Source of the DNA: an uncultured Coriobacteriaceae bacterium
GTDB lineage: Bacteria > Actinomycetota > Coriobacteriia > Coriobacteriales > Coriobacteriaceae
Reading direction: 5' to 3'
NCBI GenBank assembly: GCA_944320725.1
Contig: CALUIM010000001.1
Span: 1-64,000, forward strand
Length of the DNA stretch: 64,000 nt
Of this stretch, positions 15,839-52,466 are shown one piece after another. How positions within the stretch are numbered: position 1 is the stretch's first letter; every line of letters begins with the position of its first letter. Position numbers and translations under genes: made by a program. A model generated the notes under the pieces. It made no database searches. It saw only the letters and a program-made list of their open reading frames with translations, and was not told the origin of the DNA.

Positions 15839-17503
15839 TTAGCCGACGTAGCCGAGGATGCCGGTGAAGTAGCCGAGGATACCGACCACGAAGATGGCAA
15901 CGATGATCCATAGCGTGTTGACCTTCTTGCGGAGCATGGCCCACACGAGCATGGTGATGCCCAGCGGGATGAGGCCAGGAGCGAGCGAGTCGAGCACGCT
16001 CTGGATGCTGGTGACGCCCTCGCCCACAGCGATCTCGAGCGGGGTGTTCACGGCAACGCGCGTGGCGGCCATGGCGCCCACGACCATAAGACCAACAATG
16101 GAGAACGCGTTCACGATACGGTCGATCGTGCCGTTCTTGAGGATGCGCAGCAAGCTGGACTTGCCCTGGTTGTAGCCGGTCATGAACATGAAGTAGCCGC
16201 AACCGAAGATGAGCGCCTCGAAGACCACGAAGGACAGGATCGGGCCGAGGTAGCTACCCTCGAGCGCCATCGAGCAGCCGATGCCGAACAGCGTCGGGAA
16301 CAGGATGCCCTGCATGATGGTGTCGCCGATACCCGCAACGGGGCCCATGAGACCGGTACGCACGGAGTTGATGTCCTCGGCGGTGACGTCGGCGCCGTTG
16401 GCGCGCGCCTCCTCCATGGAGCATGCGATGCCGTTGATGATGGGGCCAACGGTGAAGACCTCGGAGTTGTAGAAGACCATATACTTCTTGAGCTCCTCGA
16501 CCTGGCGCTCATGGCTGTCATACAGCGCGCGGATCGGGGTGATCATGAGGTTTGCAGCACCAAGAGCCTGCAGGCGCTCGTAGTTGTAGCACGCCTCGGT
16601 GGAGGTGGTCCACAGCCAGGTCTTGATGAGCGTGCTCTTGGAGAGACGCTTGGTGTACTCGAGATCCTGAGCAGCGACAGCATTCTCAACCGCGGGTGTA
16701 GCCGCGACCTCGATGTTGTCGACCTTCTTGCCCACGGACAGACGCTTGACGGTCTTCTTGGCAACCTTCTGGACGCCCTCGTTGTCGCCCAGGAAGGTGA
16801 TGATGGCGATGATGGCAGCGAAGATGGAGATCGCGGTCAGGCCAAGGCCAGAGTACGCGGTCAGGAAGAAGCCACCGAAGAACCACGGGATCAGCTTAGG
16901 CTTGCCGAGGTAGTTGAGGAGCATGGCAACGCCGAGAGCGGGCATGATGCCGCCGACAACCTCGAGCGCGTTGATGACGTCCTCGGGAACGGAGTTGATG
17001 AAGTTCTGAGCCCAGTCGCCGCCGAACATGATCATGAGGAACACGGGCACGCCGTAGAGCAGCGCGGCCATGCAGCAGGAGGGCACGAAGTTCATCAGGC
17101 GGACGCCGCGGATGTTGCCCTTCTCGAGCAAGCCATCGGCGATGTGGATCCACGCGGCGTTAACCGTCATGTACACCTGGTTGAGCAGCAGGCCCAGAAG
17201 CGACAGGGGGACGGCGAACGTAGCGGCCATCGAGGGATCGGCACCCGAGATAAGCACCATAACGGTGCCGAAGATGCCGGCGACGATGGTGTTGCTGGGC
17301 ATGGTGCCGCCAGCAGAGATCCAGCCAAGATAGATAAGCTGGATGTTAGCGCCCGCGAGCATGCCGGTCATGGGATCACCCATGAAAAGGCCGACAAGCG
17401 TACCCGTGGTCAGCGGGTAAACAAGGCACTTAGTAACCGGGCCGAAGAACCACCATTGGCCCATGGTTGCAAGGATAGCAACCAGTAGAGCGGAAATGAC
17501 CAT
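15839..17503 (-). CDS. Fused PTS IIC-IID permease, mannose/sorbose family
   Basis: 554 residues in one frame. Residues 1 to about 250 are a multi-helix IIC domain (GDPMTGMLAGANIQLIYLG, PLSLLGLLLNQVYM). A charged linker (about 250-285, KKTVKRLSVGKKVDNIEV then an Ala-rich stretch) leads to a IID domain (about 285-554) with TLIKTWLWTTSTEACYNYE, GLMGPVAGIGDTIMQG and C-terminal hydrophobic helices. IIC and IID are normally separate genes. The enzyme imports and, with IIB, phosphorylates a sugar. It sits between the zinc dehydrogenase (19-base gap) and the IIA gene. Confidence 0.9.
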   Translation of the reverse strand: MVISALLVAILATMGQWWFFGPVTKCLVYPLTTGTLVGLFMGDPMTGMLAGANIQLIYLGWISAGGTMPSNTIVAGIFGTVMVLISGADPSMAATFAVPLSLLGLLLNQVYMTVNAAWIHIADGLLEKGNIRGVRLMNFVPSCCMAALLYGVPVFLMIMFGGDWAQNFINSVPEDVINALEVVGGIMPALGVAMLLNYLGKPKLIPWFFGGFFLTAYSGLGLTAISIFAAIIAIITFLGDNEGVQKVAKKTVKRLSVGKKVDNIEVAATPAVENAVAAQDLEYTKRLSKSTLIKTWLWTTSTEACYNYERLQALGAANLMITPIRALYDSHERQVEELKKYMVFYNSEVFTVGPIINGIACSMEEARANGADVTAEDINSVRTGLMGPVAGIGDTIMQGILFPTLFGIGCSMALEGSYLGPILSFVVFEALIFGCGYFMFMTGYNQGKSSLLRILKNGTIDRIVNAFSIVGLMVVGAMAATRVAVNTPLEIAVGEGVTSIQSVLDSLAPGLIPLGITMLVWAMLRKKVNTLWIIVAIFVVGILGYFTGILGYVG

Positions 17504-17522
17504 GTGTCATCCTCCCTTGCTC

Positions 17523-18527
17523 CTAGTGTTCGCCACTCAGGCGAACCATGACCTTACCCTTCCGTGCATGTTCTTGCGTCTTGAGCTCCCCTCCCATCTC
17601 CTCGAGCGTAAGTTCTGCGCTGATGATCTTTTTGGTATCAAGCCGTCCGCTCGCGAGGATGTTGATTGCGCGCGCGGTGGTTTGCGGATTGAGATACGAG
17701 GTGTAAATCGACAGCTCTTTGGTATACGCCTCGAACTGATTGAACGAGATGGGCTGCTCGGGGTCGCCGAGGCCAAAGAGCAGCACCTTGGCGTTCTTGC
17801 CAGCAATATGAATTGCCTGCTCCATGGTTGCCTTGAGGCCGATGCACTCGATCACGTAGTCGGCATTCACGGTGGCGCACACGTCTTCAATCTCGGCATC
17901 CGTCACCGCCATATCGGCACCCAGCTCGAGGGCAATCTGGCGCTTGCCCTCCTCGCGCTCGACAACGATAACCTTGCCCGGCCCCGTCATCATGATGAGC
18001 TGCAACATGAGCGAGCCAATGGCGCCCATGCCGTACATCACCACGGTTTTACCGCTCTCCATCTTGATGAGGTCCAGACCGTGAATCGCGCACGATAACG
18101 GCTCGGCAAATGCAGCATCCTCAAGGTCGAGATTGTCGGGGATGTGGTAGACGTTCTTCTGCGGTGGATAGACATAGTCCGCGAAGCCCTTGGCCACACC
18201 ATGGCGGTCGACGCAGAAGTTGGGCAGGCCCTGCTGGCACCAGATGCAGTCGCCGCAGCCAAAGCTGGGGTCACATGCCACGCGGTCGCCCGGCTTGAAG
18301 AAGGTGCACTCAGGGCCCACGGCCTCGACGACGCCCGAGCACTCATGCCCCAAAATGATGGGCGGGATCACCACACTCGCGCCGTTTTTACCCTGGAACT
18401 TATGGATGTCCGTACCGCACAAGCCGCACCACGCAACGCGAATCTTGACCTCGCTGCCCACCGGCTCGCGATCCGGCACCTCACGCACCTCATAGGTATA
18501 GTCTCCTGTGTAGAAGCCAGCCCTCAT
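17523..18527 (-). CDS. Zinc-dependent medium-chain polyol/alcohol dehydrogenase
   Basis: 334 residues. Catalytic zinc region CGLCGTDIHKFQ and GHECSG; structural zinc lobe with cysteines in FGCGDCIWCQQGLPNFC; AEPLSCAIHG; cofactor loop GMGAIGSLMLQ. It resembles sorbitol, butanediol or threonine dehydrogenases. As the first structural gene of the PTS operon it most likely oxidises or reduces the imported sugar alcohol or its phosphate. The second ATG (18527) is chosen; the ATG at 18539 lies too close to the GAAGGG site. Confidence 0.87.
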   Translation of the reverse strand: MRAGFYTGDYTYEVREVPDREPVGSEVKIRVAWCGLCGTDIHKFQGKNGASVVIPPIILGHECSGVVEAVGPECTFFKPGDRVACDPSFGCGDCIWCQQGLPNFCVDRHGVAKGFADYVYPPQKNVYHIPDNLDLEDAAFAEPLSCAIHGLDLIKMESGKTVVMYGMGAIGSLMLQLIMMTGPGKVIVVEREEGKRQIALELGADMAVTDAEIEDVCATVNADYVIECIGLKATMEQAIHIAGKNAKVLLFGLGDPEQPISFNQFEAYTKELSIYTSYLNPQTTARAINILASGRLDTKKIISAELTLEEMGGELKTQEHARKGKVMVRLSGEH

Positions 18528-18682
18528 GTCAGCGCACATCCCTTCGAATCGTTAGCGACAACACGTGGTACAACGCACACGCAGTACATGGCAGCAGAGC
18601 CGGTATGTGCCCTCTAGCTACGCATTCGTGTACGTTTTATTGATTTCAGAATATACGTATGTTTGGGCTTAGCAACAACGTG

Positions 18683-18757
18683 CAACTGGTATTACCGCCT
18701 GTAGCGCAAAATGCCTGCGTACAGGATGTTATAACGTTATGTTGTAACAACTGGTAT
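18683..18757. promoter_or_regulatory. Putative GntR operator sites ahead of the PTS operon
   Basis: The 10-mer CAACTGGTAT occurs at 18683-18692 and 18748-18757. The first continues into TGGTATTACC, close to the TGGT-N3-ACCA pattern of GntR-family operators; between them lies the palindrome GTTATAAC (18728-18735). Location between the regulator and the operon it precedes fits autoregulation and operon control. Confidence 0.45.
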
Positions 18758-18768
18758 GAATGGAGTCT

Positions 18769-19509
18769 CTAGCGGTCGAGCTCGATCTCCATGCGGTAAT
18801 AGTCCGGCCGATAGAACGAGTCCACGAACTCGCGCGGCTCATCATGCTGGTCGTACGAGATGCGCGTGACATGAATGAGCGCCGATCCTTCGGGCACGCC
18901 GAGAAACTTCGCATGGGCCACGGTGGCGCACGATGCCGAAATGGTCTGGTTGGCGCGCTTCCACACCACGCCGCATTCGTTGTTTACATAGGAGCGCAGC
19001 GATTCCCGGCTGAAATCACGCACGATCGCCTCGGGAAACCGCTCGTTCTCGTAGTAGTTGAACTCGATGAACGCCGGCTCGGAGTCGAGCAGATGCAGCC
19101 GGCACAGGCGATACAGGCTTGTCCCCTCGTCTACCTGAAGCTGCTTGGCAAGCGATCTGCCTGCGGGGATGATGCTGGCATCGACCTGCACCTTGCTGGG
19201 CAGGGCGCCTTGGCGCATGCAGAAGCACTCATAGTTGCGCACATGCTGCAGCGAGGTATCGGGCACGTTCGAAATGACCACCGAGCCAAACCCGCGGCGC
19301 TTTTCGATTAAACCGTTTGCCGCAAGCATCTCCATGGCACGCCGCGCCGTGATGCGCGACACGTCGTAGCGTTTCATAAGCTCCGTCTCAGAAGGGATGC
19401 GGTCGCCCACCTTGTAGACATGGCTGATGATGTCCTGGAACACAATGTCATACAGCTGAGAATACAGATTCTCTCGAGCGTTCAATGTCACTGCGCGGCG
19501 CTCCGCCAT
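18769..19509 (-). CDS. GntR-family (HutC/UTRA) regulator of the PTS operon
   Basis: 246 residues. N-terminal winged helix (QLYDIVFQDIISHVYKVGDRIPSETELMKRYDVSRITARRAMEML read in parts, GLIEKRRGFGSVV), then a UTRA effector domain (EGTSLYRLCRL, EPAFIEFNYY, PEGSALIHVTRISYD). Start 19509 has AGGGAGGGTGAG. It directly precedes the sugar operon on the same strand, so it is the likely repressor responding to a sugar phosphate. Confidence 0.9.
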   Translation of the reverse strand: MAERRAVTLNARENLYSQLYDIVFQDIISHVYKVGDRIPSETELMKRYDVSRITARRAMEMLAANGLIEKRRGFGSVVISNVPDTSLQHVRNYECFCMRQGALPSKVQVDASIIPAGRSLAKQLQVDEGTSLYRLCRLHLLDSEPAFIEFNYYENERFPEAIVRDFSRESLRSYVNNECGVVWKRANQTISASCATVAHAKFLGVPEGSALIHVTRISYDQHDEPREFVDSFYRPDYYRMEIELDR

Positions 19510-19665
19510 CTCACCCTCCCTAACGCGAACCTGATGCATGAAAAAGATGAACAGTTATCATACACCCGGTTTGCAAAGGCGCTATAAGTGCGTGTTTTAT
19601 TTTTCGGTCGATAAGCAAGCTTTAAGCGCTGTACGCACCAGCGGCACGAATGGTTAAAGCGCCCG

Positions 19666-20484
19666 TTAAATCAGCCCGAAGTGGCGACAGGCAGTGGCGA
19701 CACCGTCGTCCTGCACCGAATCGGTGATGTAGGCCGAGGCCTCTTTGATACTCTCGAGCGCGTTGCCCATGGCCACGGGCGTCTCGACCACTTGGAGCAT
19801 GGGCAGATCGTTTTCGGAGTCGCCGAACGCGTAGGTGTCCTCGACACCGTGGCCCAAAATCTCAAGTGCCTGGCGCACGCCCCAGCCCTTGTCGATGCCC
19901 TTCTGGCCGTATTCGCCATAGCCAATGCCCAGATCGAAGCGCGTGTAATGCTCAAGGCAGAAGTCATCCACCTGTTTGAGGGCCTCAAGCTGGCTCGATT
20001 CATACGAGAACTTGTTGAAACGCAGGTTCGAAAGCTCACGCATCTGCGAGAAATTGCGCGCGACGGGGATGTCGGTATTTCCGGGATAGTTGCCGCCGCC
20101 CGGCACGAGCGTCACGCACCCTTCCGTTCCCTCGAAGATGACCGAGGCGCCCACCTCGGCCAGACGGTCGACCGTCCCCTCGAGCACGTCGAGCGGAATC
20201 ACGCGCTCCTTGACCACGCGCCCGTCAACCGAGACGCACGAGCCGGCACCGGTGATAAGGCCAGCGGGTTCAAGGTCGAGCAGCGATTGCGATACCAAGC
20301 ACAGCGGCCTGCCCGTGCAAATGAACGTCTTATGCCCGTTGTCGCGCAGCGCAAGGAAGGCGTCGCGCACCGCAGGCGTAGGATGCGCCTTGGCAACAAC
20401 CTCGAGCGCGTCCATCGCCGGCGGATGGTAGATGATCGTACCGTCGACGTCGAAGAACAGCACCGCGTACGCTGCAGCCTGCAT
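19666..20484 (-). CDS. HAD-superfamily (Cof-type) sugar phosphatase
   Basis: 272 residues. Motif I FFDVDGTI with nucleophile and acid/base aspartates, motif II CTGRP, and motif IV GDSENDLPML with a Cof-type C2 cap between. Such enzymes dephosphorylate sugar phosphates or cofactors; the substrate is not predictable. Divergently oriented from the rlmKL-like gene. Confidence 0.88.
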   Translation of the reverse strand: MQAAAYAVLFFDVDGTIIYHPPAMDALEVVAKAHPTPAVRDAFLALRDNGHKTFICTGRPLCLVSQSLLDLEPAGLITGAGSCVSVDGRVVKERVIPLDVLEGTVDRLAEVGASVIFEGTEGCVTLVPGGGNYPGNTDIPVARNFSQMRELSNLRFNKFSYESSQLEALKQVDDFCLEHYTRFDLGIGYGEYGQKGIDKGWGVRQALEILGHGVEDTYAFGDSENDLPMLQVVETPVAMGNALESIKEASAYITDSVQDDGVATACRHFGLI

Positions 20485-40588: not shown

Positions 40589-40925
40589 TGGTGCTCCCCT
40601 CTCGGCGGCGGATGAATACTATCGCGAGCGCATCGTAGATGCGCGACGTTCGCATGTGCAGCATTGTACTCTCGCGCTCCGAGGCACATCCCAGCATTCG
40701 CCGGCGCCGCCGTTTTGTAATAAATCGGTTACCGGGGTAGCACCTGCATACGTCCTGAACAGGCCTCGCGTTGCAAGATGCGGAACGGCTCGATACCTGC
40801 GAACATTAATCCTACTAATTCGCTATACTTAACAAAATCAAACGGACCTACCACCGACATGCCACGCCGAACCCCGTCTGCCGGGATTTCCCGCGCACGA
40901 CACACGGCCACCGAAAGGCACGCTC
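40589..40925. other. Divergent promoter region of ilvE and cysE
   Basis: No gene is seen. For ilvE a TACAAT-like -10 lies near 40665 on the minus strand without a clear -35; no T-box sequence was recognised. For cysE, TATACT at 40824-40829 is a good -10, with a TCCTACTAATT motif immediately upstream instead of a -35. Confidence 0.45.
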
Positions 40926-41693
40926 ATGAGCTTCATCTCCACCATACGCGAGGACATCGCGACCGTGCAGGCCAACGACCCCGCGGCGCAAAACGCGCTC
41001 GTGATCTTCATCTCGTATCCGGGCCTGCACGCCAAATGGATGCATACGCCCGAACACTGGCTGTGGACGCATGGCGCTCGCAGCATCGCGCGCATTCTCT
41101 CGCAGGTCACGCGCTTTTTCACAGGCGTCGAGATTCATCCCGCCGCCCAGCTTGGCCGCCGCCTGTTCATCGACCACGCCATGGGCGTCGTGATTGGCGA
41201 GACCACGATCGTGGGCGACGACTGCGTGCTGTATCAGGGCGTCACACTCGGCGGCACCGGCAACGAAGACGGCAAGCGCCACCCCACGCTGGGCAATGGC
41301 GTCGTGGTGGGCACCGGAGCCAAGGTGCTCGGCAACATCCATATTGGGGACCGCGTGCGCGTGGGCGGCAATTCTGTCGTGGTGAAGGACGTCCCTGCCG
41401 ACTGCACGGTTGTAGGCATCCCCGGGCGCATCGTACGCCGCAACGGATGCCGCATCATGGAGGCGAGCTTCGATGCGCGCAGCCATCGTGAGAACATGCC
41501 GGACCCCGTAGAAGAGGCCTCGCTGGCAAACCGCGAGCGCATCGGCGCAAACGCACGCCGCATCGCAGAGCTCGAGCATCAGGTCGCACAGCTCACCGCA
41601 CTTGTCGAGCAGCTCGGGACGGCCAGCCCCGAAGACGCCGCCTCGCCATTCCCCGCACCTGACGCCCCCTCCACGAGCGAATCGGACGCATAG
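40926..41693 (+). CDS. cysE: Serine O-acetyltransferase
   Basis: 255 residues. Left-handed beta-helix acyltransferase: GVEIHPAAQLGRRLFIDHAMGVVIGETTIVG is seen in blocks, then GVTLGGTGNEDGKRHPTLGNGVVVG and GNSVVVKDVP. It makes O-acetylserine from serine and acetyl-CoA, the cysteine precursor. It has the short N-terminus of EpsC-type enzymes plus a C-terminal extension (about 190-255) with a predicted helical heptad stretch (RIAELEHQVAQLTALVEQL). GAAAGG ribosome site. cysK is not in the window. Confidence 0.93.
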   Translation: MSFISTIREDIATVQANDPAAQNALVIFISYPGLHAKWMHTPEHWLWTHGARSIARILSQVTRFFTGVEIHPAAQLGRRLFIDHAMGVVIGETTIVGDDCVLYQGVTLGGTGNEDGKRHPTLGNGVVVGTGAKVLGNIHIGDRVRVGGNSVVVKDVPADCTVVGIPGRIVRRNGCRIMEASFDARSHRENMPDPVEEASLANRERIGANARRIAELEHQVAQLTALVEQLGTASPEDAASPFPAPDAPSTSESDA

Positions 41694-41779
41694 GGCACCT
41701 CGCGTTGTATACTGACACTTACCAAAAAATCGTCAGCGGTTATACGCCCCGCGCGCACCGCTCGCCATAGGGAGGCCCA

Positions 41780-42619
41780 ATGGCACGAATTAGTGTCGAT
41801 TACTTCTCCGCCGCGCTCATGCGCACCACCACGCTTGACGTTATTCTGCCCGTCGACAACCCTGGCGAGGCCATGGGCGTCGATCACGAGCGCAGGCACA
41901 ACCCCGAAGCCTGGGACCGCCGCGGCTACCCCGCGCCCAAGCCCCCGTTCAAAACGCTGTATCTGCTGCACGGCATCACCGGCAACCATACCGATCTCGT
42001 CTCCGAAACCCGCATTCGCGCTTGGGCTGAAGAGCACAACTTCGCCGTCGTAATGCCCTCGGGCTACAACGCGTTCTACATCGACCACCCCGAAACGCAT
42101 AACTACTACGGGCGCTTCGTAGGTGAAGAGCTCCTCGATGTGACCCGCCAGATGTTCCCGCTCTCCACCCGCCGCGAAGACACGTTTATTGGCGGCGTAT
42201 CCATGGGCGCGTACGGTGCGCTGCGCAACGGCCTTAAGTTCTGCGAGAACTTCAGCTCGATCGTTGCCCTCTCAACCGCCATGATTGTTGACGGCTTCGA
42301 GCAGATCATCTCCGATGACCTCTTCTTTTTGAGCAGGTCGTTCTTGGAATCCACGTTTGGCGACCTCGACCATGTTGTGAACTCCGACAAAGACCCCGCG
42401 CGCCTCGCCGCCGATTTGGTGTACTGCGATCGCCCGCGCCCGCGCGTCTTCATGGCGTGCGGCAACCAAGATCCGCTCGCAGAGGCCAACCGCGTCCTTG
42501 CCGAGCGGCTGCGCGGCATTGGCCTTGACGTCACCTACCATGAGCTGCAAGGTGGACACGACTGGAACCTATGGAACCAGGCGCTTCCGCGCGCGATAGA
42601 CTGGCTGCCCGTGCACTAG
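41780..42619 (+). CDS. Esterase D/tributyrin-esterase-like hydrolase 1
   Basis: 279 residues, alpha/beta hydrolase of the putative-esterase family. LYLLHGITGNHTD (oxyanion region), nucleophile GVSMGAYGA, and histidine in QGGHDWNLWNQAL. Family members hydrolyse short-chain acyl esters or S-formylglutathione; the substrate is unknown. AGGGAGG ribosome site. First of two tandem paralogues. Confidence 0.88.
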   Translation: MARISVDYFSAALMRTTTLDVILPVDNPGEAMGVDHERRHNPEAWDRRGYPAPKPPFKTLYLLHGITGNHTDLVSETRIRAWAEEHNFAVVMPSGYNAFYIDHPETHNYYGRFVGEELLDVTRQMFPLSTRREDTFIGGVSMGAYGALRNGLKFCENFSSIVALSTAMIVDGFEQIISDDLFFLSRSFLESTFGDLDHVVNSDKDPARLAADLVYCDRPRPRVFMACGNQDPLAEANRVLAERLRGIGLDVTYHELQGGHDWNLWNQALPRAIDWLPVH

Positions 42620-48142: not shown

Positions 48143-48448
48143 TTAGCCTTCCCAGCCTTCCTGGATCGACTCGTAGAACGTTGCCTCGGGGAAGAGGTCG
48201 TGGATGCTCTTGCCATCATGCCACGGCAGCTCAATCAGCTCGGGCATCGTGGTGACCAGCTCGGTGCAATCGGTAAAGCGGCCCTTGTCGTTGAGCTTGC
48301 TGCAATCCTGCACGCGCCAGTAACCATCGGTGTGCGTGATGTAGTACTCGTCACCATCGACATCCATGAATACACGCGTCTTAGAACGCAGGTACGCCAG
48401 GAAGCCTTCGAAATCTACTTCGATCGCCTCATTCGCCTTGAGTCCCAT
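48143..48448 (-). CDS. Conserved-looking hypothetical protein, 101 residues
   Basis: Start 48448 has a strong GAAGGAGG; it ends before a good terminator, so it is a real independent gene. The protein is acidic and soluble, without membrane segments: helix (EAIEVDFEGFLAYLRSK), a beta-rich middle (RVFMDVDGDEYYITHTDGYWRVQD) and an acidic helical end. The family was not recognised. TATAAC at 48508-48503 on the minus strand is a candidate -10. Confidence 0.8.
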   Translation of the reverse strand: MGLKANEAIEVDFEGFLAYLRSKTRVFMDVDGDEYYITHTDGYWRVQDCSKLNDKGRFTDCTELVTTMPELIELPWHDGKSIHDLFPEATFYESIQEGWEG

Positions 48449-48671
48449 GGTGTCCTCCTTCAAACGTGCGCCCGCGGCGCGAGCGCAATGCCTACAGAGC
48501 CAGTTATATCTAGTAAACCCATGACACCCCTCTGGCATACCGTCATTCTGGTGGGCGGCGCGGCTTTAAGGGTGGACGGGCGAACTTGACACAACCAGCC
48601 TGTGCCCCTTGAGAGATGTGAAGCGACGAGATGCAGAAGTGCGACCAACGTGCATGGCGTGTGAGCTGCAG

Positions 48672-51080
48672 TTACATGAGTCCAAGGTCGGGATGATCGA
48701 TGCCATGCTCGAGCGTGTAGGCCATCATGGCATCGCGCGCGTCGAGCGCCTGCTGTGCCGCGCCGGCAAAGCGCTCGGCATCCACCAACGCGAACCCCGC
48801 TGCCGCCAACGCAAAGCGATCCATCTCGTTCTCGTAGAGCATGCCAAACGGCGTCGTCGTTGCCCCGCGATCGCGGAAGCCGTGCACGTCGAAGCGGGTG
48901 GAGGCGGGACGGCGCGCAATGATGCGCAGAAGCTGCCCTTCGTAGCCATGGAAGCAGAACAACACCGGCACCTCAAGCGGGAAGAGCGCACAGAATGCCT
49001 CGTCGTCGAGCGCCTGGGTATCACGCGCGGGATCACCGAGCCGCAGCAGATCGACCACATTCACAAACGACACGCGGACGCCTTCGTCCGAGAGCATCTT
49101 GGCGGCGGCAAGCGCCTCAACCGTCACCACATCGCCCACCGAGGCCACAACGATATCGGGCGTCTCCCCCGCATGACAGCTCGATGCCCAGCCCCAGGCC
49201 GAAGCGCCCTGCGCCAGCTCGGCACGCGCCTCATCGATGGTGAGATATACCGGCGACTCGTGCTTGCCCGCCACGATGCCGTTCACACAATTGGTCGAAG
49301 CATAGCAGCGCTGCATCACGGCGAGCATCATGTTGGCATCGACCGGATAGTACAGGTGCGCAACGTGCTCGTCAGAACACGACTTATTGATGAGGATATC
49401 AGCAAAGCCGGGATCTTGATGCGAGAAGCCGTTGTGATCCTGGCGCCACACATGGCTGGTGAGCAGAATGTTCAGACTCGCGATGGGCTCGCGCCAACGC
49501 GCATAGCGCGCCGTTTCTTCAAGCCACTTGCAGTGCTGCGCCACCATAGAGCCCGCTACCTGGGCAAACGCCTCGTACGTTGCCCAGATGCCATGACGGC
49601 CGGTGAGCACGTAGCCTTCCAGCATGCCCTCGCACTGGTGCTCGGACAGCACCTCGACCACCTTGCCCGAAGGAACAAGGTCGAGATCCTCGTCGTCGTA
49701 CCAATAGCCGAGGTTCCACTGCTTGCCGGTCACCTCGAGCGAGGCGTCCATGCGGTTCGATGAGAGCTCGTCGGGTGAGAACAGGCGGAACGTATCGGGG
49801 TTGGCGCGCATGACCTCGCGCGTATAGGTGCCGCACATGCCCGCGAGCCCCAGCTTGCGCTCGCCGCGCGTACCAGCCGTGAGCAGCAGCGCGTAGTCGG
49901 CGGGATCCGGCAGGGCAAGCGGCTGACGCAGGCGACCACCTTCTGCCAGGGGATTTGTGCCCAAGCGCATCTCACCTGTAGGCATGATGGCGCGCACCTG
50001 CTCGCGCAAGCCGCCCGCCTCGGTGAAGAGGTTCTCGGGATGATAGCTTTTGAGCCAGCGCTCGAGCCATGCGAGCCGCTCGGGCGAGGCGCCCACGCGC
50101 ACCGGCACTTCGTGAATTGCGGCGGTATCTTGAAGCGGCGTGCCATCGGGCGCAGCTGGTGTAGTCCAGCCCTTGGGGGACTGGAAGATGATGAGCGGGT
50201 AGCGCGCAGCAGCACCGTCGCTGGCAGTGTGCTCCTTGATATCGCAGATACGATCGAACACGTCCTCGAGCAGCTCCGCGAACCGCTTATGATACGAAGC
50301 CGGCTCCTCATCGTCGAAGCCTACGGTGAAGGTCACCGGATCGTAGCCAAAGCTGCAGAAGAACATCTCGCGCTCGGTTGCCGGCGCGGAGGCAATCATC
50401 GATGGCATGGTGATCTTGTAGCCGTTCATATGGAGAATCGGCAGCACGATGCCGTCGGTTGCAGGGTTCATGATGCGCGCGGTCGACCACGCGGCGGCAA
50501 TGGCCCCCTCCTCCGACTCGCCGTCGCCCACAATAGGAACGACGAGTTGATCGGGATTGTCGAACGCCGCGCCGAACGCATGGCTCAACGTATAGCCAAG
50601 CTCGCCGCCGGTATGGATCGACCCGGGCAGCATGGGCGTGCAGTTGGACGGCATGCCTCCGGGCGCTGAATACGCGCGCATGAACTCGGCCATGCCGGCC
50701 TCGTCGTCGGTCACCGACGGATAGCGCTCGCTGTACGAACCATCGGCAAGAGCGCTCACCGCACCCGCCGAGCCGCCGTGCCCGGGACCGATAACCACGA
50801 GCGCGCGCTGGCCGTGATCGGCAATCAGGCGGTTGAGGTGCGCGTAGATGAAATTCAAACCAGGAATCGTACCCCAGTGACCCACCGGGCGCGGCTTCAC
50901 GTCGGAAAACTCCAACGGGCGACGCAAGAGCGGGTTACTTCTGAGGTAAATCTGCCCCACCGAGAGGTAATTCGCACAACGCCAGTAGGCATCGAGCGCG
51001 TCCACGCAGGCGGCATCGATCTCCACACGTCCGCGGTGCCAAGGCATGCCAACCGCATCATGCTGCGCCATCTGCGTCAT
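48672..51080 (-). CDS. xfp: Phosphoketolase with an active-site substitution
   Basis: 802 residues, full length for xylulose-5-P/fructose-6-P phosphoketolase, a ThDP enzyme yielding acetyl phosphate. Aligned by eye to the bifidobacterial enzyme, most landmarks are conserved: NYLSVGQIYLRSNPL, VGHWGT (His64), GPGHGG (His97), AIHEVP (His320), SEHQCEG, RQDHNGFSHQDPG. But the PSH motif carrying His142 reads PSN (Asn146), SIHEGGELG reads SIHTGGELG, and GDGEAETG reads GDGESEEG. The ATG at 51080 has GAGGGGAGC. Substrate range or activity may be altered. Confidence 0.9.
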   Translation of the reverse strand: MTQMAQHDAVGMPWHRGRVEIDAACVDALDAYWRCANYLSVGQIYLRSNPLLRRPLEFSDVKPRPVGHWGTIPGLNFIYAHLNRLIADHGQRALVVIGPGHGGSAGAVSALADGSYSERYPSVTDDEAGMAEFMRAYSAPGGMPSNCTPMLPGSIHTGGELGYTLSHAFGAAFDNPDQLVVPIVGDGESEEGAIAAAWSTARIMNPATDGIVLPILHMNGYKITMPSMIASAPATEREMFFCSFGYDPVTFTVGFDDEEPASYHKRFAELLEDVFDRICDIKEHTASDGAAARYPLIIFQSPKGWTTPAAPDGTPLQDTAAIHEVPVRVGASPERLAWLERWLKSYHPENLFTEAGGLREQVRAIMPTGEMRLGTNPLAEGGRLRQPLALPDPADYALLLTAGTRGERKLGLAGMCGTYTREVMRANPDTFRLFSPDELSSNRMDASLEVTGKQWNLGYWYDDEDLDLVPSGKVVEVLSEHQCEGMLEGYVLTGRHGIWATYEAFAQVAGSMVAQHCKWLEETARYARWREPIASLNILLTSHVWRQDHNGFSHQDPGFADILINKSCSDEHVAHLYYPVDANMMLAVMQRCYASTNCVNGIVAGKHESPVYLTIDEARAELAQGASAWGWASSCHAGETPDIVVASVGDVVTVEALAAAKMLSDEGVRVSFVNVVDLLRLGDPARDTQALDDEAFCALFPLEVPVLFCFHGYEGQLLRIIARRPASTRFDVHGFRDRGATTTPFGMLYENEMDRFALAAAGFALVDAERFAGAAQQALDARDAMMAYTLEHGIDHPDLGLM

Positions 51081-51230: not shown

Positions 51231-52466
51231 TTACCCCTGTCCTTCCACCACATTGTCCCATCCAAGCAGATGGGCGCCCTCGTCGCTCAAGACGTAGGTG
51301 AGCGGCCGCTTCGATACGCGGTCGAGCAGGCCGCGCTGCTCAAGACGCTTGAGAACCGCGCGCGCCACCGCCAGGGAAACCCCCAGAAAGGCCGCAATGT
51401 CGTTCGATCGAATCTCTTGGTACAAATCGAAGAGGGAGCGCTGAGTCGCATAGAAGAGTACGTCGCGTTCACGCTCATCCCACTCTGCAGTACGCCCTGA
51501 AATCACGTCGTAGGCATGATCGATCTGGTCTTGCTTCTCCTCAAGATCGGCAATGAGCGCATCCTGCGCCTGCAGCAGCAAATCGCAGATCATCAGAACA
51601 AACGATGTCGCTTCACTTTGATTGACCGGATGCTCCACCGTTTTGAACGCCTTGTAATACACTGCCTTGTTCTCGGCAATCGTACGCGAAAGCGAGAGCA
51701 CTGTGGGCTGCGATAACGGTCGTGCCAGCTGGAGTGCAAGCAGGTAGCGGCCGGTTCTTCCGTTGCCGTCAAAGAACGGATGGATGTACTCAAAGAGGAA
51801 GTGGCAGAGCGCCGCGCAAAACACTTCAGGGATGTCCTCCCGATGCGCAAGCCGAAGCATCTCCTCGATGTAAGGCGCAATGCGGTCGGGAGCAACGCCA
51901 ACGTGAACGCGCTTGCCCCCGGCGCCATACAGCTCGACACCGTCCCTTCGGAACAGGCTGTCTCCCAGCTCGCACTCCGGCGCGAGCGTATCGCCCACAA
52001 CAGCATCATAGATGCTGCGTATTGCTCCAGGGGTCTCCGGAAATGAGGCATTGTTCTCGGTAATACCAAGATATAGCTGAGCGAATTCCGCAAACGGCGC
52101 ATGGTTATCGGTCGTCGCCTCGAGCGCATCTTTAATCTGCCGGCGCGTGCTATATACACCCTCGATCTCGTTGCTTGATACCACCTCGTCACCAATGAGC
52201 GAGCGAACATATGCGCCCAGCGCAACGCGGGGCAACTGCCGCCACAACGCAGACACGCGGCGCTCTTTGCGCAAAATCTGCTCGTGCGCAACCGAGAGCT
52301 GCCGAGGGACCGCCAGGAAAAGCTCGCCATGCTCGAGCATGATGCCCGTTCGAAATGTCGATTCTGCCTCAAGGCGCTCGCACGCCACACGCTCCGCACG
52401 AGCGAAGCGCTCAGGCGTGCTGTCGAGATACAGCACCTTGCGTATGGTTGGATACTCAAACGCCAT
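51231..52466 (-). CDS. Fic-family AMP transferase with winged helix
   Basis: 411 residues. The active loop HPFFDGNGRTGR (229-240) is canonical, so NMP transfer is expected. The N-terminal inhibitory helix motif SNEIEG (98-103) matches (S/T)xxxE(G/N), a class II (Fic2) arrangement in which the glutamate blocks ATP binding. The C-terminal ~100 residues include a winged helix (IRSNDIAAFLGVSLAVARAVLKRLEQRGLLDRV read in blocks). Typical of self-regulated Fic proteins of unknown target. The gene stands alone behind composite repeats. Confidence 0.92.
   Translation of the reverse strand: MAFEYPTIRKVLYLDSTPERFARAERVACERLEAESTFRTGIMLEHGELFLAVPRQLSVAHEQILRKERRVSALWRQLPRVALGAYVRSLIGDEVVSSNEIEGVYSTRRQIKDALEATTDNHAPFAEFAQLYLGITENNASFPETPGAIRSIYDAVVGDTLAPECELGDSLFRRDGVELYGAGGKRVHVGVAPDRIAPYIEEMLRLAHREDIPEVFCAALCHFLFEYIHPFFDGNGRTGRYLLALQLARPLSQPTVLSLSRTIAENKAVYYKAFKTVEHPVNQSEATSFVLMICDLLLQAQDALIADLEEKQDQIDHAYDVISGRTAEWDERERDVLFYATQRSLFDLYQEIRSNDIAAFLGVSLAVARAVLKRLEQRGLLDRVSKRPLTYVLSDEGAHLLGWDNVVEGQG

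Follow-up and report, generated by a model that had tools for sequence, protein, structure and literature searches.

A natural Asn142-type phosphoketolase paralogue conserved in two genera of Coriobacteriaceae, with a possible change of donor preference

Five histidines are heavily conserved and mechanistically important in phosphoketolases, and in a family alignment all five positions, 142 included, show heavy conservation (PMC12012885). His142 helps to dehydrate the dihydroxyethyl-ThDP intermediate (PMC6435721, PMC12012885). Gln321 lies in the inorganic-phosphate (Pi) subsite together with H64, H320, Y501 and N549 and also takes part in sugar-phosphate recognition (PMC12012885).

Both positions have been replaced in engineered enzymes. 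In a directed-evolution study, the BbPK H142N variant was active, with a kcat/KM increased 8.5-fold on glycolaldehyde and 3.6-fold on D-erythrulose, and the Q321A variant had a 5-fold higher catalytic efficiency on DHA; the modelled pocket was smaller in both (PMC10547157). The H142N single mutant still yielded acetyl phosphate, combined mutants brought no improvement, and none of them paired the single mutations with an acidic residue at 321 (PMC10547157). On fructose, H142N reached 23% of the best mutant, which itself was 5.6-fold above wild type (PMC12012885). B. adolescentis Q321V stayed close to wild type on F6P, with a kcat/KM of 1006 versus 1082 per M per s, and B. breve Q321A changed the affinity for Pi in only a minor way (PMC12012885).

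We analyzed a 64,000-nucleotide stretch of DNA from an uncultured Coriobacteriaceae bacterium (GCA_944320725.1, contig CALUIM010000001.1, positions 1 to 64,000), hereafter the window. An ORF on its minus strand (48672-51080) encodes a full-length phosphoketolase of 802 aa in which the motifs read, in order, GGMPSNCTPMLPGSIHTGGELG and then GDGESEEG. The Pfam domains XFP_N, XFP, and XFP_C (PF09364, PF03894, and PF09363) all scored above their gathering cut-offs, which lie near 23 bits, at 428, 239, and 182 bits, and Transketolase_N was not reported for the protein in the Pfam search. When compared with NCBIfam, where NF003620 and the PRK05261.1 series served as the canonical XFPK equivalogs, the protein fell under all six phosphoketolase cut-offs, the nearest being 929 against 962 bits, and it scored 978 bits on NF003620, for which the cut-off is 1518; transketolase models gave only 21-22 bits. 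Automatic annotation would describe this gene as a plain "phosphoketolase".

Alignment to the B. longum enzyme placed Asn146 (codon AAC at 50643-50645, minus strand; GTT on the plus strand) at the position of His142, giving PSN, as an earlier sequence-only reading of this DNA had claimed. Asn is found here in all nine genomes of the genus and in all four sampled genomes of a neighboring genus, and it is therefore not a sequencing accident. The neighboring, or sister, genus is an addition to the sequence-only reading; its four second copies all read [AS][AS]N at the 142 motif. Two further replacements were also as claimed: SIHEGG has become SIHTGG by Thr157 (50610-50612, minus strand) at the position of Glu153, and GDGEAETG has become GDGESEEG by Glu191 (50508-50510, minus strand) at the position of Thr187. 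Position 153 is Thr or Ser in the window's own genus and Lys in the sister genus, and Glu at 187 occurs in the own genus only.

The alignment added four real changes, all on the minus strand. Glu324 (50109-50111) corresponds to Gln321 of the Pi subsite (PMC12012885) and is Glu throughout the own genus and Asp in the sister genus. Ser104 (50769-50771) replaces Pro100 in the His97 loop, Tyr137 (50670-50672) replaces Phe133, and Ile194 (50499-50501) replaces Leu190. The sister-genus copies accordingly carry K153, T187, and D321, and in addition D547E. Position 739 (Bl numbering) is Ala in 10 of the 12 readable Asn142-type proteins and mostly Ser or Thr in canonical ones; this position was one site chosen for glycolaldehyde in a published screen.

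The remaining active-site histidines were said to be conserved, and H64, H97, H320, H548, and H553 indeed are. In the window protein the alignment gives, on the minus strand, His68 (His64; 50877-50879), His101 (His97, the proton donor in dehydration according to PMC6435721; 50778-50780), His323 (His320; 50112-50114), and His554 (His553; 49419-49421), as well as Glu480 (the cofactor-activating Glu479; 49641-49643). Tyr502 (49575-49577) and Asn550 (49431-49433) match Tyr501 and Asn549 of the Pi site, and His549 (49434-49436) and Lys606 (49263-49265) match His548 and Lys605, which recognize the sugar phosphate. His64, His97, His320, Glu479, Tyr501, Asn549, and His553 are invariant in all 13 Asn142-type proteins, and so are the distal sugar-phosphate residues S440, R442, S541, H548, and K605. 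Altogether, 15 of the 17 conserved first-shell residues named in the structural literature are unaltered in the 13 proteins.

The 87 canonical phosphoketolases share 121 invariant positions, and at five of these 13/13 Asn142-type proteins differ, namely P100, F133, H142 (N), E153 (T/S/K), and Q321 (E/D); L190 became a sixth when the conservation level was set at 97%. Column 142 separates the two groups, with Asn in 13/13 paralogues and His in 87/87 canonical copies. The changes had been described as a cluster in one pocket, which did not hold up: only two of the 17 conserved pocket residues were among the six changed (hypergeometric P = 0.10, not significant), and T187E falls outside the published first shell and is absent in the sister genus. 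What carries the argument is which residues were exchanged and that the exchanges are fixed, not their clustering. The AlphaFold monomer model had a mean pLDDT of 71, and three loops of the active site (138-159, 316-330, and 543-555) had values under 50.

The same genome encodes a second phosphoketolase on another contig (L001, G000:C2), an 848-aa protein with PSH, SIHEGG, GDGEAETG, and HQVP. This canonical copy is 69% identical to the B. longum enzyme and 52% identical to the window copy, which in turn shares 48% with B. longum. A canonical copy always accompanies the Asn copy. The canonical gene is preceded by genes for a GntR/UTRA regulator and a PfkB-type kinase.

A motif scan of 299 Coriobacteriales genomes found the Asn form in exactly the 13 genomes and no other, and 396 Actinomycetota genomes gave 78 motif matches, of which 76 had His and two had Asn, both from the own genus. 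PSN as a common alternative, which the sequence-only reading had named as a refutation of altered substrate preference or chemistry, was thus rejected for the Actinomycetota sample. The pattern G[IM]PS[HN] caught 24 genomes, compared with 92 that had an XFP_N match above cut-off, many of them weak. Scanning GTDB genome contigs for G[IM]PSN, the only pattern used beyond Actinomycetota and a restrictive one that rarer forms elsewhere may escape, returned eight records, all from Coriobacteriaceae: Collinsella sp. An7, An268, and An307, Candidatus Coprousia avicola, and four metagenome-assembled genomes. A 680-aa phosphoketolase-like protein (L121, genome G174, 17400-20000) has Glu aligned at 142 and about 24-26% identity, and is possibly another branch of the superfamily; it was excluded as an independent case at this position, as a large part of the phosphoketolase active site is missing from it. 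Searching the literature for phosphoketolase paralogues already described gave none, and the words paralog, two copies, and second homolog are absent from a survey of Coriobacteriales phosphoketolases (PMC5315409). The Asn142 subfamily is apparently undescribed in the literature searched.

In a first tree, the Asn142 proteins formed one clade with an SH-aLRT support of 100. The clade was recovered with support of 100/99 in a second tree from which the trait columns had been removed, and its members stayed together in 200/200 sampled bootstrap trees. It is sister to the canonical XFPKs of Coriobacteriales and Bifidobacterium and lies outside their clade, and so the paralogue is old and not a recent duplicate; the clade of the remaining XFPKs had support of only 84/82. 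Pairwise dN/dS (a Nei-Gojobori type estimate) ranged from 0.05 to 0.17 within the own genus and from 0.12 to 0.28 within the sister genus, similar to the 0.02-0.22 of canonical copies. In 9/9 and 4/4 genomes the Asn copy is either complete or runs off the end of its contig, and none has internal stops. PSN thus marks a subfamily, as had been proposed, with one clade of intact genes under purifying selection, and we are nearly certain from these sequence comparisons that proteins with Asn142, an acidic 321, and a non-Glu 153 should be treated as a distinct, conserved phosphoketolase subfamily. The single evolutionary origin means that the linkage of 142, 153, and 321 represents one event without independent replication.

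The neighborhood of the Asn copy is not conserved, and no shared operon pointing to a substrate was seen across the nine own-genus and four sister-genus genomes. In the window's lineage, the surrounding genes encode a Fic-domain protein, a MarR-type regulator, and ABC transporters (two genes), along with one small gene that has no assigned family. The Fic-domain gene (51231-52466, minus strand) adjoins the phosphoketolase, encodes a C-terminal winged-helix-like region, and, among the loci compared, was shared by the window genome and its closest relative alone. The small gene (48143-48538, minus strand) is a 131-aa ORF between the phosphoketolase and the MarR/ABC genes with no Pfam or NCBIfam match. 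Elsewhere in the window, two adjacent ORFs with similar N-termini (40778-42619, plus strand) both correspond to a single ORF in the closest relative (99% and 40%), which suggests a tandem pair. In six of the nine genomes of the genus (L042, L043, L044, L045, L046, and L047), the gene immediately upstream of the Asn142 phosphoketolase, in the same orientation, is glmS (glutamine-fructose-6-phosphate aminotransferase, assigned by domain content). This adjacency is absent in the window's lineage and in the sister genus, and a glmS operon is therefore not decisive as a clue to the substrate.

The genome also contains acetate kinase, phosphotransacetylase (Pta), transketolase, and two transaldolase-family genes, so any acetyl phosphate formed could be consumed immediately. 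The two transaldolase/FSA-family genes are near neighbors on opposite strands (L137, G000:C2, about 114010-115915), and one of them could be a fructose-6-phosphate aldolase making dihydroxyacetone. The organism's own transketolase is split, with the N and C halves adjacent. Replacement of a missing transketolase by the paralogue was rejected, as transketolase-type genes are present in every Coriobacteriaceae genome.

The window protein is very likely an active ThDP enzyme and probably still makes acetyl phosphate; an Asn at 142 is compatible with this production because an engineered H142N phosphoketolase works. Whether its donor preference has shifted appears evenly balanced. An altered preference, as proposed in the sequence-only reading, is reasonable because engineered H142N retains activity and gains efficiency on glycolaldehyde and D-erythrulose. 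The substrates tested in that study (PMC10547157) are not known as physiological in these bacteria, which counts against a shift. Taken as a whole, we tentatively favor, with somewhat less than even confidence, an active phosphoketolase paralogue that would prefer a donor other than Xu5P or F6P. His97, His320, His553, Glu479, Tyr501, and Asn549, together with the distal residues, would carry the ketose adduct through formation, cleavage, and dehydration to the release of acetyl phosphate, and the changes of His142 to Asn and of Gln321 to Glu or Asp would remodel the donor pocket. Short or non-phosphorylated ketoses and glycolaldehyde would be the first candidates for the new donor. Since S440, R442, S541, H548, and K605 are invariant, a phosphorylated donor may still serve, and this argues against complete loss of such use.

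The strongest competitor, less probable than the shifted donor but to be taken seriously, is an isofunctional or differently regulated XFPK that still uses Xu5P and F6P, in which the changes are tolerated and the gene serves dosage, timing, or allostery. The wholly conserved distal phosphate site is consistent with this, as are the near wild-type behavior of Q321V on F6P and the minor effect of Q321A on Pi (PMC12012885), and the genomic setting is unlike that of the canonical copy behind its GntR/UTRA regulator. However, every one of the 87 canonical copies keeps H142 and E153 and 13/13 paralogues have both replaced, which makes neutral tolerance unlikely, and identity to the canonical paralogue is just 52%. 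We consider it unlikely that the chemistry itself has changed, with dehydration and phosphorolysis weakened and the C2 intermediate going to hydrolysis (acetyl released as acetate) or to transketolase-like transfer of the adduct to an aldehyde, or with a donor not preferred by known natural phosphoketolases. Here Glu or Asp at 321 would repel Pi or activate water. Both H142, implicated in dehydration, and Q321 of the Pi subsite are replaced and the cleavage residues kept (PMC6435721, PMC12012885), and the residues at 153 (T/S) and 187 (E) in the own genus look like those of transketolase, including the organism's own (PGIDMSTGSLGQG, GDGEIEEG). The resemblance does not extend to the sister genus, where 153 is K and 187 is T, and Pi-site residues His64, Tyr501, and Asn549 are retained. 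Moreover, production of acetyl phosphate persists in the H142N single mutant (PMC10547157), and the presence of transketolase-type genes in every genome also speaks against such a change.

Loss of activity is less probable still. An impaired or dead homologue with a non-enzymatic role, for instance in a heterodimer with the canonical subunit, would fit the loss of a residue that is invariant in canonical enzymes and the canonical copy that is always alongside, but we regard it as improbable given that all other catalytic residues are invariant across deep clade divergence and that H142N is active in vitro (PMC10547157). Random decay is the least credible of these explanations. The sequence-only reading had held that a second, canonical phosphoketolase in the genome would make this one a decaying copy; the canonical gene does exist, but the Asn copy is not decaying, since 9/9 and 4/4 copies are intact or open to the contig end and free of internal stops, dN/dS is far below 1, and the clade is ancient.

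Asn142 had turned up in a screen of mutants for activity on short sugars, and here it is naturally fixed in a whole clade. A natural clade that combines Asn142 with an acidic Pi subsite provides a ready test of the roles of His142 and Gln321 and of the evolution of donor specificity, and might yield better enzymes for making acetyl-CoA from C1-C4 sugars. Under the unlikely reading of changed chemistry, or of a donor that known natural phosphoketolases do not prefer, these bacteria would run another C2-releasing reaction, as yet undescribed, next to the bifid shunt. For gut Coriobacteriaceae, the clade suggests that carbon may have an unrecognized entry into acetyl phosphate.

Compared with the bifidobacterial and Coriobacteriales XFPKs (B. 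longum 8io6 and 3ai7; B. breve 3ahc), the window protein has the three-domain full-length architecture in common and shares the cofactor, most catalytic residues, and the sugar-phosphate residues, but departs at H142N, E153T, Q321E, P100S, and F133Y. It has the same swap at 142 as engineered BbPK H142N and a substitution at 321 like Q321A (PMC10547157), whereas in the natural protein 142 and 321 are changed together, 321 is acidic instead of Ala, and 100, 133, 153, and 187 differ too. The second copies of the sister genus (g2, L049-L052) belong to the same clade and share N142, an acidic 321 (D), and a non-Glu 153 (K); they are about 49-53% identical to the window protein and have K153, T187, and D547E. 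Transketolases retain a His in the loop corresponding to 142. They have the ThDP fold in common with the window protein, and what the own genus carries at 153 (T/S) and 187 (E) is of the transketolase kind, but in contrast to transketolase the window protein has phosphoketolase domains, the Pi-site residues, and Asn at 142.
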